This document shows, one piece after another, positions 5,381-56,906 of a DNA stretch of 64,000 nt (positions are counted from its first letter, which is position 1; each line of letters opens with the position of its first letter). This stretch comes from Symbiodinium sp. CCMP2592 (lineage: Eukaryota; Sar; Dinophyceae; Suessiales; Symbiodiniaceae), in the NCBI GenBank assembly GCA_905221615.1, contig CAJNDT010003190.1, forward strand, positions 496,001-560,000, in the 5' to 3' direction. A program made the position numbers and the translations under genes. The notes below the pieces were generated by a model that ran no database searches, was not told the DNA's origin, and saw nothing but the letters and a program-made list of their open reading frames with translations.

Positions 5381-5490
5381 CCTATAGCCTCCATTGTAGT
5401 TCCTTTTTTTGGTTAACCAACATCTCTATTATAGGGTCCTAACCATAAAACTGGTTAACCAAAAAAAGGAACTACAATGGAGACTATAGG
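5381..5490. mobile_element. Foldback element, family C (copy 1)
   Basis: The arms are CCTATAGCCTCCATTGTAGT and its near-perfect reverse complement ending ACTATAGG, about 45 bp each including GGTTAACCA. The flanking dinucleotide is TG on both sides (TG|CCTATAG and CTATAGG|TG), as expected of a 2-bp target duplication. Other copies lie at 39,299 and 42,196. Confidence 0.85.
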
Positions 5491-5627
5491 TGAAGTCCAA
5501 AGCCCGCGCCAAATGCCCAGAACCGACGCCCGCACCACATCAAACTCCACAACTCTTGACCCAAACACCGCAATCACAGCAGATGTCGCGAACCCCCTAA
5601 ATGGACAACTATCGAAATTTGTTTTCA

Positions 5628-5721
5628 CGGGAGTTTTCCGAAAATTAGGGTACTTCATTTTGAGGTCTTTATAATTAGGATCCTACCATTTAGCGCATTA
5701 TACTAGGCACCCTATCTCCCA
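5628..5721. mobile_element. Degraded foldback element, family A-like
   Basis: The left arm (CGGGAGTTTTCCGAAAATTA) and the centre (TTAGGATCCTACCATTTAG) match family A. The right arm keeps only CTCCCA and has lost the TTTCGGAAA part. The flanks do not match, consistent with decay. Confidence 0.55.
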
Positions 5722-5854
5722 TATGTGTTTCTCTTTCTGGCTCTTAAAGGACCAAATTCCTCCAGACCTGGGGTGTGGACCCGGGTTACCGAAAATGATT
5801 CCGGGCGTCCCCCACCTCCCGAATAACAACGTCCTCCCTTTCCGAATAATGTAG

Positions 5855-5954
5855 TAGGAACCTGATTAAGATACCTTGGGCCTTCATTAGGGTTCCCATA
5901 ATGAATCCTAGTATTTTTGGGTTATGGGGCCAGGGTTTCTTAAACAGGTTCCTA
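5855..5954. mobile_element. Foldback element, family P (copy 1)
   Basis: The arms are TAGGAACCTGATTAAG and CTTAAACAGGTTCCTA around a centre with GAATCCTAGTATTTTTGGG. Related copies are at 33,451-33,540 and 36,481-36,578. Confidence 0.72.
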
Positions 5955-6133
5955 CATGAATTAACCAGTTATTCCGACCACCCCCTCATGACCCCGGACA
6001 CCCTCCCCACACACTACGACGACGGCAACCGCGAACACGACCGCGACGGGGACAGGGCGGTGGCAGCGAGGATCGGGTGGTGGGGTGGCGGTGGGCATCA
6101 TCTGCGCTCTGTTACCCTGATAAGAGCGACAAC

Positions 6134-6174
6134 GATGATGATGATTATGATGATGATGGCGATGATGACGGTGC
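6134..6174 (+). repeat. GAT trinucleotide microsatellite
   Basis: Imperfect GAT/ATG run next to a CG-rich segment. The open frames here are low-complexity (Met/Ile or His-rich) and are not called. Confidence 0.8.
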
Positions 6175-6674
6175 TTGTGGCGCTGATGTCCTTTGATGCC
6201 TAGAGTCCCCAAGTTGTATGCTACATCCTCAGAGCCCTTAAGTTCCGGTCATAAAAGAAAAATCCTTGAAATCATGCGTTTGGCGTTGTCACGGGCATTT
6301 TTCGTGCAGAGCTCCGAGCAAGAGAGCCAATAGTCTTCGCAAGCTGTAGTAGTGTAGCAAAGTTTGACGGAGCCCCAAGTCACCACAACAGCGGAGTATA
6401 ACTCATTTAGGCATCCGGTTTCAGGATTGAGGATTTAAGATTTCGGGCTTGTAGGGTTTAGGGTTTGGTTGTTTCCTGGCTTGGTCAGGGCTCGCGACGT
6501 GGACGTGTTTAGGAGTGTGGGTTTCCGGACGAATCATGTAGACCTCTGAGTAGTAAGACCCTCCACCTTCAGATGGACTATCATCTGTCAGCGCCCTTAA
6601 AAACCAAGGGCAAGGGTGTGGTCAATCAGGGTCTAATTACTTTTAACGTGATAACGACAATACCAGTAGTGTTA

Positions 6675-6779
6675 CTACTATTTGCTTAAGAAACCCCCAA
6701 AAATATAAATAGTAATCCCTATATTACCCCCATAAGGAATATATTTTTTTATTTTTTGGGGTTCTTAAGCAAATAGTAG
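6675..6779. mobile_element. Foldback element, family L (single copy in window)
   Basis: The arms CTACTATTTGCTTAAGAA and TTCTTAAGCAAATAGTAG are nearly exact reverse complements, continuing inward through ACCCCCAAAAA and TTTTTTGGGG. The centre is AT-rich (AATCCCTATATTACCCCC). Total about 105 bp, the same size as the other families. Confidence 0.75.
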
Positions 6780-6819
6780 GTTAACAAGCAAGATACGACA
6801 GCCCCAACCCTAAGCCCTA

Positions 6820-6918
6820 AAGCCCGACACCCAAAACGTTTAACCTTAAACCCTCAACCCCTATACCCTAAACCCCTAAACCCCAAAACCCTAAACCCCT
6901 AAACCCCTAAACCCCACC
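6820..6918 (-). repeat. CCCTAAA telomere-like tract
   Basis: A dozen or so variable 7-8-bp units of CCCTAAA, CCCCTAAA and CCCCAAAA type. Interstitial, not terminal. Confidence 0.85.
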
Positions 6919-6981
6919 GAGGTCATTCCTGCAGAGGTGGTGCGAACATTCCTCGACCGCTGCGGCAAGGCAGCGTGTATA

Positions 6982-7084
6982 TGGGAGTTTCCGATAATTA
7001 GGGTACCTTATTTTGGGGTCCTTATAAGAAGGAGCTTGTTATTTGGAGTGCTATCTTAGGGTCCCCTATTTTCGGAAACTCCCA
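6982..7084. mobile_element. Foldback element, family A (copy 1)
   Basis: It starts TGGGAGTTTCCGATAATTAG and ends TTTTCGGAAACTCCCA. It is flanked by TA on both sides (6980-6981 and 7085-7086). The centre differs from most family members (TTATAAGAAGGAGCTTGTTA). Confidence 0.87.
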
Positions 7085-7185
7085 TATTTTGGTGTTTAGG
7101 ATCACGTTTTAAGTAGGTTACAAACAAGTATGTGTGTTTATGGGGTGGGATGTGACGGAATGGGATGGTTTGGTATGTTATCGTG

Positions 7186-7300
7186 TGTGTAATATATATA
7201 TATGTATAGATGTATATAGATATATATATATATATATATATGTATAGATGTGTATGTATGTACGTGTGTATATATACATATATGTATGTATGCATGCTTG
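7186..7300. repeat. TA / GTAT microsatellite
   Basis: Alternating TATATA and TGTATG runs. Frames here encode only His/Tyr/Ile/Thr repeats. Confidence 0.9.
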
Positions 7301-54846: not shown

Positions 54847-54902
54847 AGTCTCAGGACGACCTGCACCTAGCCTCGGCAGCCGCATCTGCCGAGGCCGGCC
54901 CT

Positions 54903-55015
54903 TTGAGGGCTCCTTTAAAAGCTCCGCAATATAGGTGCCTCAAGGGGTTCCTTTAAAGGGGTCTATAAAGGGTTCCTTTAAGGGTTCCGTTAAAGGCTAC
55001 GTAATTCTAAGGATT
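54903..55015 (+). repeat. ~17-bp minisatellite of TTCCTTTAAGGG type
   Basis: Five or six imperfect units, the same kind as at 10,545-10,650. It yields an artificial KGSIKGSFKGSVKG peptide on the plus strand. Confidence 0.75.
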
Positions 55016-55227
55016 CCTTGCAGGGTCCTCAATGTTTACCAATACTATTGGGCCCCAAGACCTTATTCAAATTATGAACGCCCCTTATTCTTAATTAGAG
55101 TGGAGCAGTTTTCCTTAGGGCTCCTTGTTATCTTGTTTGTGCTGCCCTCCAGGCCATCGCAGAGGTGTTGGAGCTCGGTCAGGAGCCAGCGGGCATGCCA
55201 GCTTCAATACGCAGGGTGTAGGGCTTC

Positions 55228-55322
55228 CCCAGGGCTCCAGTTATCTACATAGTAGGTTACTAGAGTCACTAGAGCACTTAATATATGGTTAGTAGCCTAC
55301 TAAGGTAACTGGAGGCCCAGGG
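55228..55322. mobile_element. Foldback element, single-copy family with CTCCAGTTA arms
   Basis: CCAGGGCTCCAGTTATCTAC with AGTAGGTTACTAGAGTC pairs with GTAGCCTACTAAGGTAACTG and GAGGCCCAGG. About 40-bp arms, 95 bp in total. Confidence 0.75.
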
Positions 55323-55439
55323 CTCAGCAGCAGCATATTTTAGGGAATAGTCAGAAATAGCATTCGCCAACCTTTCCGTTAACATCCTGTTTAAAGTCGC
55401 CAAGCCCGATTATAAGTCATCTCCTAAACTTAAACCCAG

Positions 55440-55590
55440 GGCTTTGGGGCTTTTGGGTTTGGGTTTTTTCAGGGTTTTGGGCTTTCGAGTCTAGGGTTTT
55501 TAGGGTTTTGGTCTTTTTGGTTTGGGGGTTTTAGGGTTTAGAGCTTTAGGGTTCAGGGTTTTAGGGTTTAGGGCTTTGGGGTTGAGGCTT
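55440..55590 (+). repeat. TTTAGGG-like tract with GGTTTTGGG variants
   Basis: Degenerate units such as TTTTGGG, TTTAGAG, TTCAGGG. Confidence 0.85.
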
Positions 55591-55905
55591 TTGAGGGTAT
55601 ATTTGGGGTATATTATGGCGCAAGCGGTTTTCAAGCTGGCAGCCATCACTTGCACAACACCTGGATCCGTTCGCACCGCAAATCGCAGAAACATGAACCC
55701 GGAGCGCTAACCCTAGACCTAACGACTCGTAGTCACAAAACATTACAAACAACTTGGCCCGCAATCCTTGAACAAGCAAATCCAAGCATAGGCAATCCAA
55801 ACCTGAAGCCCTAAACCCAGCGACCACGTCCTTAAACACCAACAGGTCGAAGCACTAAACGCTCACTAAACCTAAACCCGAAACCCTCACAAGCATCGCT
55901 GCCGA

Positions 55906-56001
55906 AAACCCTAAACCCTAAACCCTAAACCCTAAACTCTAAACCTAAACCCTAAACCCTAAACCCTAAACCTAAACCCTAAACCCTAAACCCTAAACCC
56001 T
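55906..56001 (-). repeat. Long CCCTAAA array with six-base CCTAAA slips
   Basis: About 13 units, two of which have lost a C (ACCTAAACCC). The slip variants recur at a spacing of four units, indicating duplication of a block. Confidence 0.95.
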
Positions 56002-56156
56002 TCAATGATCGCTCCGGTCTTTCGCTTCTGAAGCGAAACCCTCAGAACTCAAACCTCTCAGGGCTTAGGGATTTTAGGAATAGGGTTTAGAGTTTATAGG
56101 GTTTGGGGACTAGAACTAAGTACTTCGTATTCCCTCAAACCAAAAGTCCCGTCTAA

Positions 56157-56257
56157 GGGTTGATCATAGAAATCCTGCATTACCCATAATAAGGAATATA
56201 CCATAATTCCCATAGTTTAGGGTCCTTAAGGTAATGCAGGATTTATAACATCAACCG
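56157..56257. mobile_element. Foldback element, family B (copy 5, reverse orientation)
   Basis: GGGTTGATCATAGAAATCCT to GGATTTATAACATCAACCG with AA on both sides. Centre CATAATTCCCATAGTTTAGG. Confidence 0.86.
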
Positions 56258-56588
56258 AAGTATAGTATGAGCATGCATGAGAACCCTATTCTATGAATGC
56301 ACCCTGGTTGAGGGATGTGAGAGATCTTTTGCTTTGGGGATTTACTTGTTTCCTGCAAAAGGTTTAGGGTTCGGGACGTTAGAAGTTAGTGGCATTTTTT
56401 TGCTGCCCTATTGACTCGCGGGATCCTAACCATAAAGCAGGCTATCCCAAATTCAGGGCGCTGCGCTTAAATGCCTAGATCGTTTGCATGTAAAGGCTTG
56501 CTTAGTCCTATGTCCTGCAACTTGAAGGTTTGGCGATTGAAGGAGGGACAGTCTAGTGATTCTAGTGTCGCCCCTGATGAATACTATA

Positions 56589-56682
56589 GGTGCCTCAATA
56601 GTTACCTATACTATTGCAGGGGTTCCTCATTATAATTATCGTATATTGCGCCCCAAAGCCCAAGTCTAATTATTAAGGCCCC
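56589..56682. mobile_element. Foldback element, family F (copy 9)
   Basis: GGTGCCTCAATAGTTACCTA and AAGTCTAATTATTAAGGCCC with TA outside both ends. Centre TTATAATTATCGTATATTGC. Confidence 0.8.
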
Positions 56683-56808
56683 TACTTTAGGCCAGATCTT
56701 CCACGCCTCCGATAACTCGAACTACGAGCTAAACTGTTAGAAGCCCAAGGATTCCCAGAGGTTCTTGGTACCCAATTTGGGTTCCTGATACTGGACTCTG
56801 ATCGTTTC

Positions 56809-56906
56809 TTAGGGGTACTTAGAAATAACATATAATTTTTGGTGATTATAATCCCTAAGAGACCGCTAAAATTATAATTGTTGCTAGGGTTCTAAGTTCA
56901 GTATAG
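56809..56906. mobile_element. Family O repeat (copy 2)
   Basis: CTTAGGGGTACTTAGAAATA to AGGGTTCTAAGTTCAGTATA, matching 31,766-31,865 through most of its length. Centre GTGATTATAATCCCTAAGAG. Confidence 0.75.

Follow-up and report, generated by a model that had tools for sequence, protein, structure and literature searches.

The DNA considered here, a stretch of 64,000 nt referred to below as the window, comes from the dinoflagellate Symbiodinium sp. CCMP2592 (contig CAJNDT010003190.1, positions 496,001–560,000 of the forward strand), a strain given as S. tridacnidorum in the available text of PMC10522408 and represented by an assembly of 1.098 Gb in 5383 contigs. A gene lies at 1491–2617: its exon 1 (query 1491–2087) is 99% identical to a Symbiodinium sp. 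CCMP2592 protein, exon 2 (2174–2617) fits the remainder of the same protein by eye, and the intron, likewise placed by eye, runs from about 2090 to 2173. A putative small open reading frame (ORF) occupies 59985–60254. No gene was recognized in 5.3–57 kb, which contains 24 ORFs of 100 aa or more; of the 20 that were compared with Pfam, none exceeded the curated cut-off. This interval is strewn with short near-palindromic (foldback) elements, which are the subject of this study. The Pfam comparison covered 23 distinct window ORFs (90–199 aa; 20 within 5.3–57 kb), with no match above the curated cut-off, and ARAGORN detected no transfer RNA in the window. At the Rfam gathering threshold, the sole match in the window was a large-subunit ribosomal RNA (LSU rRNA) fragment at 63900.

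Number, size and shape of the foldback elements

A preliminary description of this DNA, made from its letters, held that the near-palindromes do not look like random inverted repeats, a view that would fall if they were no more frequent than in shuffled sequence; in two scans they are far more frequent. A gapped inverted-repeat scan (score ≥16) returned 46 inverted repeats in the window, 44 of them in 5.3–57 kb and 37 of these 44 being 75–130 bp long, compared with none in 20 dinucleotide shuffles and a mean of 0.05 (maximum 1) in 20 shuffles within 500-bp blocks. Its hits at 2743, 3019, 7192, 21002, 21905 and 55957 are simple or telomere-like repeats and not elements. An ungapped terminal-repeat scan (18 bp, at least 16 matches, tandem and telomere-like stretches removed) gave 31 terminal repeats, all in 5.3–57 kb, versus none in six 1-kb-block shuffles. 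At least two of these are something other than elements: 24275 is telomere-like, and 44379–44516 is the space separating two T elements.

Self-comparison of the masked window yielded 13 dispersed-repeat groups, 11 of which are foldback families; the other two are W, a repeat of ~108 bp that folds poorly, and the residue of a 44-bp tandem array. These groups do not map one to one onto arm types: A and I fall in one group, N is split in two, and D and V are united only because two of their copies abut. Because A is related to I and T to G, there are fewer independent lineages than arm types. The 51 family copies have a median length of 106 bp (10th–90th percentile, 91–113). Together with other hairpins of 70–130 bp they number 63, two of which are simple AT repeats (7192, 21905), so that about 60 elements occupy 13.8% of 5.3–57 kb, the 703-bp expanded K element being counted in. 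Folding is unusually stable (z < −3) in 35 of the 51 family copies, the poor folders being W (0/2) and N, in which 8 of 11 copies are not below −3.

Duplications, uninterrupted sites and nesting

We regard it as very likely that these elements are miniature inverted-repeat transposable elements (MITEs) of several families, that is, non-autonomous terminal-inverted-repeat (TIR) transposons moved by transposases encoded elsewhere. On insertion, a short AT-rich target would be cut in a staggered manner, and repair would then duplicate 2, 3 or 4 bp of it, each family having its own length. The arms, the duplications of A, T/G and Q/S, the uninterrupted sites, dispersal, nesting and decay are observed; we infer the cut-and-paste movement itself, including its chemistry, its enzymes and any present-day activity.

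Duplications of a family-specific length were found in A, T/G and Q/S. In A, a 2-bp duplication flanks 27 of 30 copies (permutation mean 18.6; none of 5000 permutations as high) and 29/36 when window copies and all sampled loci are taken together, whereas a 3-bp match occurs in 1/30 only. Most of these duplications are TA, with TG/TG, CA/CA and AA/AA also present; the two CA copies, in L011 and L016 (L-numbers denote sampled genome stretches), share flanks and represent one event. In T/G, an exact 4-bp direct repeat stands directly outside GGG...CCC in eight of the nine window copies (permutation P=5e-5; background 0.6%), and neighbouring positions agree in only 1–5 of nine. With genomic copies added, and with three window fragments and one duplicate locus dropped, 22/31 are exact at 4 bp (permutation mean 6.2), all 22 having the form ANNT and 11 being ATAT. 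A 2-bp NN duplication (24/31 match), with the terminal T and A counted as part of the element, is the alternative; the data cannot decide, and the 4-bp length is preferred because the outer A and T are nearly fixed (28/31 each). In Q/S, a 3-bp match was observed in 7/13 copies (permutation mean 0.8), the duplications being ATT, TTC, ACT, TTA, GTA, TAA and GTC. The preliminary description had proposed a single class of small non-autonomous mobile elements; mobility is supported by these significant duplications, but the single class gives way to several families with different duplication lengths. A separate idea, that A prefers telomere-like TA sites, was dropped (7/24 restored junctions vs 16% of TA sites, P=0.08, not significant).

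Uninterrupted sites were sought by removing each of 132 copies together with one duplication and comparing the rejoined flanks with the sampled DNA, where many matches were telomere-like. Seven cases were picked by eye (nine alignments, matches counted within 24 nt of the junction); in each, the host of the element, either a different element or a tandem array, also occurs elsewhere without the interruption, with 34–41 of 49 positions matching. They comprise A in a 133-bp tandem array in L002, other units of which lack A (41/49); G in a B element (41/49 and 39/49); the D copy at window 34710–34814 in a Q-type element, uninterrupted at L043 and L039 (41/49 and 39/49); T in K (39/49, with a 2-nt gap beside the junction); T in D (37/49); G in Q/S (36/49); and, weakly, D in B (34/49). 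Sites lacking an element, which the preliminary description had expected from related strains, thus exist for A, T, G and D as repeats and nested insertions within one genome. The array that harbours the A element (L002:787–1610) lies in DNA without telomere heptamers.

The palindromes could alternatively have arisen where they stand, through template switching or the repair of hairpins, without ever being inserted. Long near-perfect arms would suit such an origin, as would the internal tandem duplications of K 19628, T 45917 and N 27472 (the last by eye), but families are dispersed with matching arms and have target duplications and uninterrupted sites, all of which argues the other way; we consider such an origin extremely improbable overall, and for A, T/G and Q/S it is refuted.

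Several observations weigh against the MITE interpretation. No transposase or autonomous element was found among the Pfam-checked window ORFs, in agreement with the preliminary description, although a degraded transposase could be missed, and the long ORFs of L031, L037 and L040 had no Pfam match above the curated cut-off. By permutation, a 2-bp TA duplication is not significant for D (11/14, P=0.07), N (10/19, P=0.13), I (4/8) or P (1/2), and 4/4 in B is uninformative, because nearly all flanks carry TA; a TA duplication for I, N, D, B and P is plausible. V reaches 8/24 (P=0.01), but its short search word admits chance rows, and no clear duplication accompanies the ends as chosen for K (1/6), U (0/7) or R (4/5, P=0.10). 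One of the seven nested cases, the D copy at 34710, is flanked by TA/AA, an inexact duplication. The apparent youth of A copies is biased, since these copies are the best matches to one query. A search for long elements with the same arms gave two solo-end pairs in the sampled DNA: the window pair is two separate D elements, and the other, in L004, is a candidate.

The elements of the window are collected in Table 1. The K element at 19628 is apparently a satellite born from a MITE. The unnamed element at 11188 has one relative in the sampled DNA (L037:8087–8175, 88%).

Table 1. Foldback elements of the window, with positions counted from its first nucleotide.
Element	Position	Strand	Remarks
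Family A	5381..5490	+	110 bp; TG/TG duplication
Family A	39299..39405	+	95% to 5381 copy
Family A	42196..42293	+	centre resembling family I
Family I	19386..19480	+	TA ends
Family I	27880..27973	+	
Family I	28922..29015	+	
Family I	46346..46439	-	
Family T	6983..7083	-	ATAT/ATAT duplication
Family T	12267..12354	+	ACAT/ACAT
Family T	17863..17964	+	ATAT/ATAT
Family T	44294..44395	+	AAAT/AAAT
Family T	44500..44601	+	AAAT/AAAA (3/4 match)
Family T	46597..46714	+	ATCT/ATCT
Family T	25310..25415	-	degraded
Family T	45917..46056	-	31-bp internal tandem duplication
Family G	11489..11590	+	ATGT/ATGT
Family G	46148..46247	-	ATTT/ATTT
Family G	54072..54171	+	ATAT/ATAT
Family D	10752..10849	+	
Family D	34710..34814	+	TA/AA flanks; within Q-type element; uninterrupted relatives L043, L039
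Family D	44822..44920	+	abuts V element
Family D	53898..53991	-	TA ends
Family D	56158..56255	-	
Family N	7663..7765	+	
Further N copies	19215, 27472, 27555, 28065, 29870, 33727, 37945, 43362, 52088, 56580		mostly degraded
Family K	9179..9285	+	52-bp arms, 94% complementarity
Family K	17246..17358	-	
Family K	17662..17771	+	
Family K	19628..20330	-	centre expanded to ~15 tandem 43-bp units
Family B	5854..5955	+	also 33456-33541, 36482-36577
Family Q	13677..13791	+	also 36757-36866
Q/S-type	34901..34991	+	ATT/ATT duplication
Family P	13450..13543	+	also 38237-38329
Family R	25680..25764	+	also 38609-38693
Family V	44708..44820	+	also 25484-25589
Unnamed	11188..11288	+	possible 9-bp duplication ACATATTCC at both ends (by eye, single case)
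Element U	37103..37226	+	recurs in sampled L042, L047, L035, L010
Single in window	9333..9444	+	94% copy at L018:58-163
Single in window	9736..9825	+	91% copy in L030
Foldback	6675..6779	+	GTTA both sides (by eye); second copy not found in sample

Around these elements, the window carries a 206-bp tandem array adjoining a TAG-trinucleotide array near the gene end (3266–4303), a degenerate 44-bp tandem array with GCCAAATGAGGGGGCGTGTTTAAGAT-like units (47960–50540) and, at 60973–64000, a 324-bp tandem repeat with the LSU rRNA fragment and telomere-like repeats. Telomere-type heptamers (CCCTAAA/TTTAGGG) are dispersed through its gene-poor DNA (5300–57000), 299 in the window vs 21 in shuffles; a limited literature search found no account of scattered telomere heptamers in Symbiodinium in the text available.

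Genomic spread, decay and shared centres

The elements were initially described as a dense community between 5.4 and 56.9 kb. Their density in 5.3–57 kb stands, but they are not local: copies of A and T and a sample of 20 stretches place them throughout the genome. A first look gave 1453 candidates for A and 1054 for T; the best 40 of each were scored, with identities of 96–100% for A (the window copy at 5381 included) and 89–93% for 39 other T copies (query, the 44294 copy), and copy numbers are lower bounds because these best 40 alone were scored. The density sample comprised 20 stretches of 10 kb at round positions, on contigs mostly known from A copies, and is therefore non-random. It held 68 strong hairpins of 75–130 bp (shuffles, 0.02 per 10 kb) and 117 sites related to window elements, 73 of which cover at least 80% of the query; 41 of the 68 hairpins match window elements, and 22 of the remaining 27 recur elsewhere in the sample. 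Scaled from this small sample (68 strong hairpins or 117 relatives in ~197 kb without N), the 1.1-Gb genome may contain roughly 0.4 to 0.65 million such elements. Exact family-arm patterns had no matches in viral and prokaryotic contig collections, which says little given what these collections contain and the possible exclusion of near-window records.

Telomere heptamers number 18–80 in 17 of the 20 sampled stretches and 0–1 in the other three (L029, L034 and L044), and across 19 stretches their count correlates weakly with that of hairpins (Spearman 0.48, P=0.04). None of the 117 relatives lies in these three stretches, whose longest stop-free frames reach 317, 1367 and 1748 codons, respectively; L029 and L044 contain one unrelated hairpin each. 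L040 and L047 also have long stop-free frames and hold four relatives each, so absence of the elements from genes is not established. The 1748-codon frame of L044 stands in AT-rich DNA (GC content 0.46) that lacks telomere heptamers.

This distribution bears on introners, MITEs whose main biology is intron creation and of which the copies described here could be intergenic representatives. Family 1 introners of S. microadriaticum have, in the available text of PMC9860276, TIRs, 4-bp duplications and an example of 115 bp, and T/G is alike in size and duplication length; introner elements are given for 3.2–6.3% of Symbiodiniaceae genes in the part of PMC10522408 consulted. Set against this are the three stretches with 0–1 heptamers and no relatives, which were taken as gene-rich without annotation, an argument weakened by the relatives in L040 and L047 and by the A copy of L002 in heptamer-free DNA. 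Splice features, considered for T/G, are also lacking: the terminal letters of these elements are CCC, in contrast to the published family, described as bringing a 3′ splice site of its own (PMC9860276, available text), and AGGT, which would supply both splice signals, does not occur among the 22 exact duplications. Nor does the intron of the window's gene, as placed by eye, have long arms. Because T/G lacks the splice features and the three heptamer-poor stretches lack relatives, the elements were not filed as introners, and an introner identity seems unlikely to us.

Sequence change among A copies is as expected of insertion followed by decay. In 26 close copies the mean divergence from the consensus is 1.2%, and not one of 21 arm substitutions has a counterpart on the other arm; therefore, the palindrome is not maintained in place. 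These uncompensated changes also bear on hairpin-RNA genes (microRNA or small interfering RNA precursors), in which the hairpin would be kept by selection. The small-RNA precursors of S. microadriaticum, as given in the accessible part of PMC3853145, are 84–90 nt long, 13 of 21 having perfectly paired duplexes, and many elements resemble them in size and folding energy. With none of the 21 published small RNAs matching the window (best, 5 mismatches), no arm compensation in A, and duplications and uninterrupted sites that show insertion, we judge such genes a very unlikely explanation; as MITEs, some copies could still feed RNA interference.

Between families, the arms show a different pattern. 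A can be aligned with I over the full length, and in five arm pairs both sides are changed; this count is not above shuffles (reached in 218/500, mean 4.3), but the changed cells number 13 vs 6.3 in shuffles, and changed-cell number and covariation score exceed all 500 shuffles. Such mirror change would be expected if both arms must suit one transposase. Resemblance of the centres is less expected. T and G have a centre in common and differ in their arms. The centres of 30 of 78 family pairs are more alike than is intergenic DNA at p<0.05, and those of 12 at p<0.01 (control, 3/78 at p<0.05), and compared with dinucleotide shuffles 20 and 8 of 78, respectively; in these tests, composition is only roughly matched and the pairs are not independent. 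The T–G match is the strongest by score vs dinucleotide shuffles, yet it is not among the 15 pairs listed vs intergenic DNA, possibly because a degraded T copy was left unmasked in the background.

One could therefore imagine a modular class, and not independent MITEs, with a common slow-changing centre (TAGGnnCCTTATTATA-like, by eye) and both arms replaced together, so that descendants fall under different transposases while size and foldback shape are kept. This is a tentative proposal that we think is probably wrong. Between families of proven duplication length, A–G is the only cross-class pair among those listed (p=0.015, dinucleotide shuffles), and it is not among the 15 listed vs intergenic DNA; the other cross-class pairs, those of G with I, B and P, depend on a 2-bp class that is unproven, and the T/G duplication could likewise be 2 bp long. 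Because composition is only roughly matched, pairs are non-independent and few significant pairs cross proven duplication lengths, it is not the best explanation. The most unusual features of these elements are their similar size across duplication lengths and centres that are more alike between families than controls.

Relation to known systems and biological significance

MITEs such as Stowaway and Tourist are an established kind of element. The elements described here have the defining features of MITEs that were examined. They share with MITEs their length (about 100 bp, below 600 bp), TIRs (W and many N copies fold poorly), short target duplications, lack of coding capacity (window ORFs without a Pfam match above the curated cut-off), many dispersed copies and nested insertion, and differ in the combination of ~85–125 bp, long arms, families with 2-, 3- and 4-bp duplications, and centres alike between families. 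The family 1 introners of S. microadriaticum are intronic, unlike the copies here, which are mostly in gene-poor DNA (PMC9860276, available text). The introner elements of Amoebophrya are alike in having inverted repeats and short direct repeats, in forming hairpins and in that no transposase was found in one of two strains, but their inverted repeats measure 8–20 nt and lie in non-canonical introns, and a family-specific inverted repeat was not detected, whereas the families here are defined by arms (PMC7789003, in the part available).

These families are not described in the available text of the literature searched (PMC8045281, PMC11453091, PMC10666404, PMC10522408, PMC9860276, PMC7789003 and PMC3853145). 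The terms 'inverted', 'introner' and 'telomer' do not occur in the main text of PMC8045281, and the elements may be contained in the 'Unknown' repeats of that study. Judged from the searched literature, what is new is the set of families, how densely they lie and a foldback shape that stays similar whatever the duplication length.

The elements would form a large dispersed-repeat set in a coral symbiont that the searched literature does not describe as MITEs. They are a candidate source population for dinoflagellate introners and a possible source of hairpin small RNAs, and they could serve as insertion markers between strains. They also offer a test of what fixes the elements at a size of about 100 bp in a lineage that, according to the accessible part of PMC6027434, packages its DNA without histones.

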